Source: Sulfurimonas autotrophica DSM 16294 (GTDB taxonomy: Bacteria; Campylobacterota; Campylobacteria; Campylobacterales; Sulfurimonadaceae). Taken from it: 64,000 nucleotides of DNA. The notes beneath the pieces are model-generated. The model saw only the letters and a list, made by a program, of their open reading frames with translations, ran no database searches and was not told where the DNA came from. The stretch is taken from contig NC_014506.1 in NCBI RefSeq assembly GCF_000147355.1, positions 186,001-250,000 of the forward strand, written 5' to 3'. The position numbers were made by a program, and so were the translations under genes. Shown here in pieces: positions 228-2,888 of the stretch (position 1 is its first letter; each line of letters starts with the position of its first letter).

Positions 228-479
228 TCACAGACTACGTCTGTATATTCTTTTTGCAGTGCCGTATTTATCGTTAGTCTCCAGTTCACCATCTATCATC
301 ATCTGTCTAATTTTCTGTTCGCTGATTTTTGTAATTATGTGAGCTTGTTTTACTGTAACCAGTTCATCGTTCGGAGTATTCTCATTTAGAGTATTCTCAT
401 TTAATTTTTTTTCTATTTTTCGTTGAACCAATAAAATCTCATTAAGTATATTACTATCAACTATAATTGCATTTTGCAT
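228..479 (-). CDS. Small helix-turn-helix protein, excisionase/AlpA-like
   Basis: 83 residues. The C-terminal half (about 38-83) begins D-E-L-V-T-V-K-Q-A and continues with a pattern typical of the HTH_17 / excisionase winged-helix family: a helix, a turn, a recognition helix with K-I-R-Q-M, then a short G-E-L wing and a basic tail. The N-terminal half is a variable, charged linker carrying a duplicated pentapeptide (L-N-E-N-T). Small proteins of this family act as recombination directionality factors or transcriptional regulators of mobile elements. It is divergent from the gene at 617, and the repeat-rich operator lies between them, so autoregulation is likely. The specific role is inferred. 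Confidence 0.6.
   Translation of the reverse strand: MQNAIIVDSNILNEILLVQRKIEKKLNENTLNENTPNDELVTVKQAHIITKISEQKIRQMMIDGELETNDKYGTAKRIYRRSL
374..403. repeat. 15-bp perfect tandem duplication inside the HTH gene
   Basis: GAGTATTCTCATTTA occurs twice back to back (374-388 and 389-403). The unit is a multiple of three, so it adds one in-frame pentapeptide to the linker of the HTH protein. It is probably a slippage duplication. Confidence 0.9.
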
Positions 480-1204: not shown

Positions 1205-2335
1205 TTATGTAGGAACCTCTGGGTATCTAAATAAAACCGCATTCCAGTACTTTAGAGGATAAATACTTCGTTCCTCAGCCTCAAGTACTATTACCCTTAT
1301 AGAGCTAATGACACCATCAACTTTTTGAACTAAAATCTTGATTATTTTTGAGTATCTTTTTACTGTTCTAGGGGAAACTTTTGCTTGTTTAGCGATGTTT
1401 GAGTAGGTTAATTTAGTTTTATGTCGCAATAGTAATTCGAAAGCTACTTTAATCTTGGCTGCTGTCTTAATGCGCTTAATATCTTTTGTCCGTGTTGCAG
1501 ATTTACTTTGTCGTCTTGAGACTTCTTTTATATAATTTATTGGAGACATATTGGTTATCTTTTTAAACTTCATAGCTCCTGTTCTATACTTATGAGCTGC
1601 TTTAAAATTATTCTTATTCTCTTCGCAAAATGCTAGAACTGACTTTATGATTGCTTTTTGTTTTATAGGCTCATCAAACTGTTCGTTTAGAAGTTCTGCT
1701 CGTTTCTGTAGCTTTTCTAATAGATTGCTATGCTTTGCTACTTTATATCCATATAGTCGTAGCTGATTAAACAGATCTATATGTCTGCTTCCAGTACTCT
1801 CATACTCAGCTAAATCTGTATGCTGAGAAACTTTGTACTTCTCTTCTTTAATGATGAAGTTTTTAAAGTCTTCTAGGTCATACCCAAGATCATTATATGT
1901 AATTCTATATAGTTCATTGTTGAGAAAGTTTTTTGTTTGATGGTTTTGATATGCTTTATCTGCACCTATGAGTAGCTTTATACTATCAACTATGGTTTTG
2001 TAATACTTAACAGCTTTTCGATTTCTTTTGGATACAGGAATATTAAGTAGCCATACCAGGTGAGCTTTGTCATTATCTTTATTGAGTGTTTGTATTGATG
2101 GGGTTGGGAGTCCAACAGCATTCCATTCTGTTAATAGATCTTCATCATCGATATCCATGATGATTGCATTGAAGTGTGTATCGGTATTTAGTTGGACTTG
2201 TTTATATTTATGAGGATTCTTTTTGAGGTATTTAACAGGTAGGATATTCATATATCCATAGTTATGATAAAGTCTTATCTTGTTAAAGCGGTTAAGTGTT
2301 TTGTTAAGTTGGTTTTGTTGTTGAAAGTCTCTCAC
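1205..2335 (-). CDS. Plasmid-type replication initiator (ColE2-like Rep/primase)
   Basis: 376 residues. The central part (about 40-150) matches the Replicase family of ColE2-type Rep proteins: an acidic strand I-I-M-D-I-D-D-E, then L-P-T-P-S, a K-A-H-L-V-W-L-L segment, and G-A-D-K-A-Y-Q-N-H-Q-T-K-N. Residues about 150-245 resemble the PriCT primase C-terminal module, and 285-345 form a basic HTH (Y-S-N-I-A-K-Q-A-K-V-S-P-R-T-V-K-R). ColE2 Rep binds the origin and makes the primer. The start is GTG at 2335, overlapped by an upstream ATG-ATG-TGA, with no good Shine-Dalgarno sequence. This suggests coupled translation. Finding a plasmid Rep beside a tRNA cluster indicates an integrated plasmid or integrative element. 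Confidence 0.8.
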   Translation of the reverse strand: MRDFQQQNQLNKTLNRFNKIRLYHNYGYMNILPVKYLKKNPHKYKQVQLNTDTHFNAIIMDIDDEDLLTEWNAVGLPTPSIQTLNKDNDKAHLVWLLNIPVSKRNRKAVKYYKTIVDSIKLLIGADKAYQNHQTKNFLNNELYRITYNDLGYDLEDFKNFIIKEEKYKVSQHTDLAEYESTGSRHIDLFNQLRLYGYKVAKHSNLLEKLQKRAELLNEQFDEPIKQKAIIKSVLAFCEENKNNFKAAHKYRTGAMKFKKITNMSPINYIKEVSRRQSKSATRTKDIKRIKTAAKIKVAFELLLRHKTKLTYSNIAKQAKVSPRTVKRYSKIIKILVQKVDGVISSIRVIVLEAEERSIYPLKYWNAVLFRYPEVPT

Positions 2336-2388
2336 ATCATCTTGGCTTTTGAATTGAGAGTAAAAAAGTTAAGAGAGGCAAAAACCAA
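2332..2388 (-). CDS. Possible 18-residue leader peptide coupled to rep
   Basis: A TTG-initiated frame of 18 codons on the minus strand ends ATG-ATG-TGA, and its stop overlaps the GTG start of rep (sequence ATGTGA). The frame crosses one arm of a long inverted repeat. A leader peptide whose termination delivers ribosomes to rep is known from other plasmid replicons, such as tap-repA of IncFII. Here the TTG start has no convincing ribosome site, so the peptide itself is uncertain. The overlap at the rep start is plain in the sequence. Confidence 0.3.
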   Translation of the reverse strand: MVFASLNFFTLNSKAKMM

Positions 2389-2468
2389 AACTTTTTAGAT
2401 TATTTTACACAAAGAGTCTTTCAACTCTTTGCAAAGTTACAGATTTTGCCTCTCTGTGTAAAATAATC
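2372..2468. repeat. Crossing long inverted repeats in the rep leader
   Basis: Two perfect inverted repeats interlock. AGAGAGGCAAAA at 2372-2383 pairs with 2444-2455 (12 bp), and GATTATTTTACAC at 2398-2410 pairs with 2456-2468 (13 bp). The right-hand arms touch each other (2455/2456). A third hairpin, CAAAGAGT at 2410-2417 with ACTCTTTG at 2424-2431, sits between. Because the order is A-B-A'-B', the two long stems cross. With no spacer between A' and B', both are unlikely to form fully at once, so they may be alternative folds. The region lies upstream of rep in its direction of transcription. Confidence 0.85.
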
Positions 2469-2548
2469 GAATTACTCTGTGCAAAGACTCAGAAAAGTCT
2501 CGCATTAGCAAGTTTTGGCTCCCTGCACACAATAATTTAAATGTGCAG
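2431..2548. repeat. Diverged direct repeats and a hairpin, probable origin/leader region
   Basis: CTCTGTG(T/C)AAA occurs at 2452-2462 and 2475-2485, spaced 23 bp. A longer degenerate copy of 2431-2467 (CAAAGTT...TTTTGCCTCTCTG...ATAAT) recurs around 2508-2536 (CAAGTTTTGGCTCCCTG...ATAAT). CTGCACA at 2523-2529 pairs with TGTGCAG at 2542-2548. AGACT/AGTCT form a small hairpin at 2485-2500. Iterated and palindromic sequences next to a rep gene are typical of replication origins or copy-control leaders. Between 2549 and 2705 I see nothing beyond AT-rich sequence and a possible minus-strand TATAAT near 2553. Confidence 0.5.
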
Positions 2549-2705
2549 AAATTATAATAGTTTTAGAGTTTTTTTGCCTGAGTGCAGAGTGTCATTATTT
2601 TAGTTATATGGAGATATATCAGAATATATGGTGTATGAATAATTGTATTTTTGTGATTATTTTGCTTAAATTTATATATTAGTCTTAAAAAGAATTTAAT
2701 TTTAA

Positions 2706-2803: not shown

Positions 2804-2888
2804 TGGTGCGGATGAGAGGACTTGAACCTCCACGCCTTGCGGCACCAGATCCTAAGTCTGGCGTGTCTACCAATTTCACCACATCCGC
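2804..2888 (-). tRNA. tRNA-Leu (anticodon UAG)
   Basis: Minus-strand cloverleaf: acceptor GCGGATG pairs with CATCCGC followed by A and an encoded CCA. The long variable arm is typical of class II tRNA. The anticodon loop CTTAGGA between GCCAGA and TCTGGT gives anticodon UAG (Leu, CUA codons). It is the last gene of the five-tRNA cluster, and its 3' end faces the integrated element. Confidence 0.95.

Follow-up and report, generated by a model that had tools for sequence, protein, structure and literature searches.

The rep locus and its host element

The DNA under study (the window, 64 kb) corresponds to positions 186001-250000 of a 2.15-Mb single-contig Sulfurimonas genome. L numbers below denote loci, and those relatives that carry a name are Sulfurimonas and Helicobacteraceae MAGs. 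A replication gene and an attachment site were recognized as follows:

1205-2335, minus strand: rep, 376 amino acids, GTG start, PF03090 Replicase (ColE2-type initiator), E 1.8e-16
2804-2860, minus strand: attachment site, the 3' part of tRNA-Leu (gene 2804-2888), with a copy at G000:C1:152082

The Rep protein scored 60.9 bits against PF03090 (cut-off 26), which places it with the ColE2-type initiators, and shared 22-28% identity with plasmid initiators. The two copies of the tRNA-Leu repeat (58 nt, 3 mismatches) lie 36.7 kb apart, and the distant copy (attR) adjoins a tyrosine-recombinase-like gene (L079 2283-3452). Between the copies, conjugation genes (TraG_N domain, E 1.4e-27) and, by eye, a ParA-like gene were found. 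On the strength of the repeat, the recombinase and the conjugation genes, the region is, judged by its sequence, an integrative conjugative element of about 37 kb with rep at its tRNA end. Several related elements adjoin tRNA clusters of the same kind. As integrase of the element, the recombinase beside attR (L079) fits better than an integrase-like gene at L002 11603-12604, 10 kb from rep, which was rejected for this role.

Direct repeats of GGTACGGT (GGGTACGGTCTAGGGTACGGTT on the minus strand) occupy 2709-2741 of the window, next to the tRNA-Leu attachment site; they were also present in L011, L016 and L017, and partly in L022, and are possible integrase arm sites. At 228-479 (minus strand), a protein of 83 aa is encoded, which weakly matches excisionases (phrog_2655, E 7.5e-4).

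Leader architecture, distribution and portability

The rep leader contains two perfect inverted repeats, which were checked by script. In repeat A (12 bp), AGAGAGGCAAAA at 2372-2383 pairs with TTTTGCCTCTCT at 2444-2455, and in repeat B (13 bp), GATTATTTTACAC at 2398-2410 pairs with GTGTAAAATAATC at 2456-2468. The arms follow the order A-B-A'-B' with no gap between A' and B', and the crossing repeats described in the original prediction were thus reproduced in coordinates and sequence. The whole window has four perfect inverted repeats that reach 12 bp within 110 nt, and A and B are two of them. Dinucleotide shuffling of 2336-2560 (n=5000) yielded one such repeat in 30 cases and two in none; the pair of A and B is beyond chance. 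The fold of the minus-strand RNA, which had been proposed as a check, gave z = -6.5 against shuffles for 2552-2336, with two competing states (P1 and K, see below) among the predicted folds. A/A' and B/B' are parts of larger imperfect pairings of 23 and 22 nt, respectively, and a similar second repeat set adjoins the A/B set.

The leaders of ten rep genes (window and nine relatives) were compared and assigned to three classes. Class 1 (window, L011, L012, L006 and L007) has one architecture in common, in the order -10 box, P1 5' arm, K5, P2, P1 3' arm, P3 5' arm, K3, P3 3' arm and initiator gene. The P1 5' arm is typically AAATTACTGTGTGCA and K5 often GGGAGCCAAAAC; the P1 3' arm is TGCACAGAGTAATTT, with a conserved G-G mismatch. 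In the window and L011, two P1-K5-P2 units precede a single P3/K3. The parts in the window are:

2575-2580, minus strand: CAGGCA element, about 18 nt before the -10 box, common to several class 1 and class 2 leaders (by eye and pattern)
2551-2556, minus strand: predicted -10 box of the rep promoter, TATAAT
2469-2538, minus strand: unit 1, with P1 at 2538-2524/2483-2469, K5 at 2523-2510 and P2 at 2501-2495/2490-2484, assigned by covariation
2398-2468, minus strand: unit 2, with P1 at 2468-2455/2411-2398 (B/B'), K5 at 2454-2444 (A') and P2 at 2429-2423/2418-2412
2363-2396, minus strand: P3 hairpin, AAAAAGTT at 2396-2389 and AACTTTTT at 2370-2363, with K3 in its loop
2373-2393, minus strand: K3, of which 2384-2373 pairs with K5 of unit 2 (A) and 2393-2385 with K5 of unit 1

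Within unit 2, B/B' is the outer stem P1 with one A arm in its loop, and the other A arm lies in the loop of P3; A/A' is K5 with K3. The third hairpin, which had already been noticed, is P2 of this unit. The K5/K3 duplex energies in the window were -24.6 kcal/mol for unit 2 and -15.4 kcal/mol for unit 1. The match of unit 1 to the covariance model in its own genome (E 4.7e-14) arises by construction. In ten of ten module leaders, a -10-like hexamer was located 14-20 nt before P1.

The module was found in ten genomes of one family by protein, pattern, DNA and covariance-model searches (window, L006, L007, L011, L012, L022, L060, L063, L064 and L069). L022 was found by pattern search, L060, L063 and L064 by a covariance model of P1 plus P2, and L069 by a DNA search starting from L063. 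A second covariance model, built with all members, revealed no further member among 228 genomes of the family, and an order-wide search in a sample of 399 genomes revealed none outside it. The leader had no blastn match among PLSDB plasmids at E values up to 1. The Rep protein had no relatives among GenBank phages. No relatives were obtained from IMG/VR either, where hits to single patterns were read individually and none had both module arms. At the Rfam gathering score, only tRNAs were matched in the window; the leader hits below the threshold look like chance.

The gene behind the module is another one in L022 and L060; its two proteins are 54% identical to each other and gave no BLAST match to Rep. 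The best family of the L022 protein was phage O-like replication initiation (phrog_9773, E 2e-9). The same module thus stands before a PF03090 Rep and before a non-homologous initiator, and is portable. Furthermore, Rep proteins 66-76% identical to class 1 Reps carry class 2 or class 3 leaders, and the most divergent Rep, that of L007 (56-59%), has a class 1 leader. From this mismatch of sequences, leader and initiator appear to have been exchanged between elements.

In three conjugative elements, those of L063, L064 and L069, a conserved ORF-less stretch of 600 nt or more takes the place of rep after the module; the output of the module can therefore not be limited to translation of an initiator. 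No rep gene was seen in these three post-module stretches as read. The L063 element carries a gene for a MobF/TraI-type relaxase, and relaxase-like genes were recognized by eye in L064 and L069. These stretches are candidates for a large RNA, possibly one that acts in replication.

Several further observations were made on the leaders and post-module stretches. The leaders of L063, L064 and L069 form a subtype of the module with an extra hairpin between K5 and P2. Their post-module stretches (L064: minus strand) share conserved blocks without an Rfam match at threshold; the 621 nt at 1720-2340 of L063 are predicted to be highly structured (z -6.1, 20 shuffles), and the opposite strand of L063 gave a sub-threshold CopA match (29.1 bits, gathering score 60). 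The stretches open with a domain resembling the class 2 rep leaders L013, L014 and L017. This second leader domain consists of an outer helix and a hairpin, with UUUGRCG-like loops (UUUGGCG or UUUGACG) in several members. The same three class 2 leaders hold an identical short frame, ATGAAAATTAGGGATTTTTGA (MKIRDF stop), behind AAAGAGAACT, which is a candidate leader peptide. L015 and L016 represent the third class, with a long-range helix around AGATACG...AGTATCT or AGTGTCT; their Reps are 69-70% identical to that of the window. A leader peptide of class 1 was considered and dropped: its TTG-started frame runs through in L006, L012 and the window but is broken in L007, and L011 lacks it. By eye, no ORF was conserved across the leaders compared.

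Covariation and pairing types

Covarying bases in related leaders had been named as a check of the two repeats, and the complementarity was found to be kept with compensatory changes. In 12 units, 94% of the P1+P2 cells were paired compared with 81.7% in shuffles and at most 51% in slid controls; 14 of 22 pairs had changed on both sides, and the covariation score was reached by 0 of 500 shuffles. For K+P3 in six leaders, the corresponding values were 94% and 74.6%, with 15 of 21 pairs changed on both sides and again 0 of 500 shuffles reaching the score. The alignments had been written by hand after the structure, and the sequences are related, which makes the shuffle comparisons of both sets look more significant than they are. 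The slid versions and the complete replacements of K carry more weight. Some of the loci were found with P1/P2 models; K was part of none of the search models. Covariation of P3 comprised seven of its eight pairs.

Six sequence types of K were distinguished, each with a matching K3:

GAGAGGCAAAA: window, unit 2
GGGTATCAAGCT: L011
GGGAGCCAAAA-like: L006, L007, L012, L022 and L060
GGGTACGAATCT: L063
GGGTACAAG: L064
GGTACTAAGTTGT: L069

The K pairs of L063, L064 and L069 comprise 12, 9 and 13 bp and are again new sequences. In a duplex matrix, cognate pairs reached -15.8 to -21.9 kcal/mol; between types, most pairs were much weaker, and L064 with L011 (-16.8 kcal/mol) was the strongest exception. 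The wobbles read as G-U on the rep-sense strand in 14 cases and as A-C in 2, a bias that favours pairing in the rep-sense RNA over pairing in DNA or in the opposite strand.

The elements of the window and L011 are sisters, with rep 92% identical as DNA and 94% as protein. Between them, the P1 arms are 90-100% identical, and the K5-P2 and K3-P3 segments 40-51%. By analogy, such change confined to the loops is what would be expected of an incompatibility determinant, a comparable case being the loop changes in RNAI of IncK (PMC10724649).

These comparisons also bear on the view that the repeats are iteron-like or operator sites in the DNA, bound by Rep or another protein, and that the RNA folds are incidental. 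The K sequence of L011, present in two direct copies and one inverted copy, has the look of such sites. However, K differs between the window and L011 at 94% identity of Rep, and it is shared by L022 and L060, with their unrelated initiator, and L006, L007 and L012. In addition, the P3 arms covary around K3, and the wobbles are strand-biased. Iterons or Rep-binding sites at the DNA level were rejected because K does not follow the protein, and this explanation is regarded as highly improbable. The module, by comparison, is very probably a real control device, since both folds are kept in ten genomes while the pairing letters change completely.

Competing folds and proposed control of the initiator gene

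Constrained, pseudoknot-free folds were calculated with either P1 or K enforced. For the eight single-unit leaders, the K state was the minimum or within 0.3 kcal/mol of it, and the P1 state lay about 2-9 kcal/mol above the minimum. In the window, the P1 fold was favoured by 7 kcal/mol over the unit-2 K fold. With one assumed 5' end, its minimum was the P1 fold; with the other, the minimum kept P1 of unit 2 and paired K5 of unit 1 with K3, as was also the case in L011. A 5' hairpin, P0 (TGCAYA.../TGTGCA), which may replace P1 in the K fold, appeared in several minimum folds; it depends on the exact start of transcription and was therefore not relied on.

Since K5 abuts the P1 5' arm without a spacer, a K of 12 bp together with a full P1 is geometrically implausible. 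The original argument that a full pseudoknot is sterically unlikely was retained in this form, although a short kissing interaction alongside a formed P1 may occur. Exchange of the P1 and K folds is supported by predicted energies and by covariation, its steric part being deduced from the spacing. Alternative folding of the RNA upstream of rep, as first proposed, was supported by the competing P1 and K folds in the predictions and by the position of the leader behind a predicted -10 box; the picture was incomplete, P3 and the second unit having been missed. Loss of the complementarity in related elements had been named as a ground for giving up the two-fold idea. The relatives keep it, so the idea is not refuted on that ground; structurally it is well supported by the modelled folds.

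With a probability of about 0.6, the leader of the initiator gene of this integrative conjugative element contains a cis-acting RNA control module, in which P1 is exchanged for K, the K fold is permissive, a competitor acts on K5 or K3, and K confers specificity. During transcription of the leader, the P1/P2 hairpin would form first and hold K5 in its loop, because P1 is complete before K3 is transcribed; K should follow later. Once K3 has been transcribed into the loop of P3, it would pair with K5 over 9-13 bp, and the RNA would swap the P1 fold for the K fold, full K and full P1 being mutually exclusive. By comparison with IncI and IncL/M plasmids, the K fold would permit expression of the initiator, and the freely changing K would be the determinant of specificity (incompatibility). 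The K fold would be blocked in trans by a molecule that competes for K5 or K3 and rises in proportion to copy number. The module may thus, by analogy, control both initiator expression and copy number. Against this reading stand the weak ribosome-binding sites of the Rep start regions, which lie outside P3, and the preference of the window for the P1 fold.

An antisense RNA would be the expected competitor, but on the opposite strand no conserved promoter was detected: the best -10 candidates differ between members, and a scan of the window with simple scoring was not above chance. Action in trans could also come from the same strand, if a released P1/P2 small RNA, or a second copy of the leader, paired its K5 with K3 of other rep transcripts; the leader would then be a sensor of copy number, and a second unit would raise the dose. 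K5 is predicted to lie in a stable hairpin at the extreme 5' end, and the window and L011 have two K5 per K3, both K5 of L011 sharing GGGTATCAAGCTGT. In the single-unit leaders, however, the K fold in cis is already predicted as the minimum or near it, and this possibility was judged decidedly unlikely.

Transcription attenuation, with K (or P3) as terminator and P1 as anti-terminator, would let the choice of fold decide on the access of RNA polymerase to rep. It would fit the order of synthesis, P1 being made before K3, as well as the members ahead of an ORF-less region, and a U-rich stretch follows the K hairpin in the window, L006, L007, L012, L060 and L011. Against it, the T tract begins several bases past the stem; L022 and L069 have none after K3, that of L063 and L064 is weak, and a terminator scan of the window showed nothing at K or P3. 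A terminator at K3 or P3 was rejected, the T tracts not being conserved, and attenuation is considered unlikely. An improbable extension of the main reading is a wholly self-contained switch with fixed stems and a K that is rewritten as a unit, in at least six specificity types. It would serve unrelated initiators and possibly also initiator-less elements replicating from a long structured RNA, and would sense copies through the same strand, without an antisense gene.

Control of initiator genes by RNA is an established feature of enterobacterial, pseudomonad and Gram-positive plasmids. The closest known counterparts of the Sulfurimonas module are the portable REx-C modules of Pseudomonas plasmids and the pseudoknot switch of IncI and IncL/M plasmids. 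Asano and Mizobuchi in 1998 and Athanasopoulos in 1999 reportedly described a pseudoknot switch with antisense RNAI for IncI (ColIb-P9 repZ) and IncL/M (repA). In these plasmids, translation is activated when a 5' loop pairs with a segment close to the initiator, and an antisense RNA blocks this. Both an antisense RNA and a translated leader peptide belong to the IncI and IncL/M systems (PMC10286972, PMC12365149). The proposed cis-acting control module of Sulfurimonas is alike in that a 5' hairpin loop pairs near the initiator gene, as indicated by the covariation of K, and in that the loop region, which sets specificity in IncI and IncL/M, probably does so through K. It differs in the length of the pairing (short in IncI and IncL/M, 9-13 bp for K), in leaders without a conserved leader ORF in place of a translated leader peptide, and in having no conserved opposite-strand promoter where IncI and IncL/M have antisense RNAI.

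ColE2-type replicons combine a PF03090 Rep with an antisense RNA against the rep leader (PMC5304414). The Sulfurimonas locus shares the Rep family and a structured untranslated leader before rep, but its element is chromosomal and conjugative, and the leader architecture matches no Rfam family. The REx-C modules of Pseudomonas plasmid replicons (RepA-PFP, RepJ, RepA-RA2 and RepA-Pa) are small stem-loop regions directly before rep; they are swapped between non-homologous rep families, and changes in their stems are compensated in the opposite arm (PMC5304414). RepA-PFP is related to the ColE2-type Rep, and exchange has been described for both REx-C and REx-R modules; for REx-C, the authors propose an antisense RNA and argue against any pseudoknot formed with the surroundings of rep (PMC5304414). 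The Sulfurimonas module is likewise portable between unrelated initiators and has compensated stems. In contrast to REx-C, it shows strong covariation of the long-range pairing K and lacks a conserved antisense promoter; by blastn, the leader matched none of the PLSDB plasmids.

The module, very probably a real control device, is of a kind known in plasmids and new in its design and in the Sulfurimonas group. It would extend RNA-based initiator control to integrative conjugative elements of Sulfurimonas-like Campylobacterota and constitutes a clean natural experiment, with conserved stems, a rewritten pairing segment and one and the same module ahead of unrelated initiators. If K is the incompatibility determinant, the K pairs would directly predict which elements interfere with each other.
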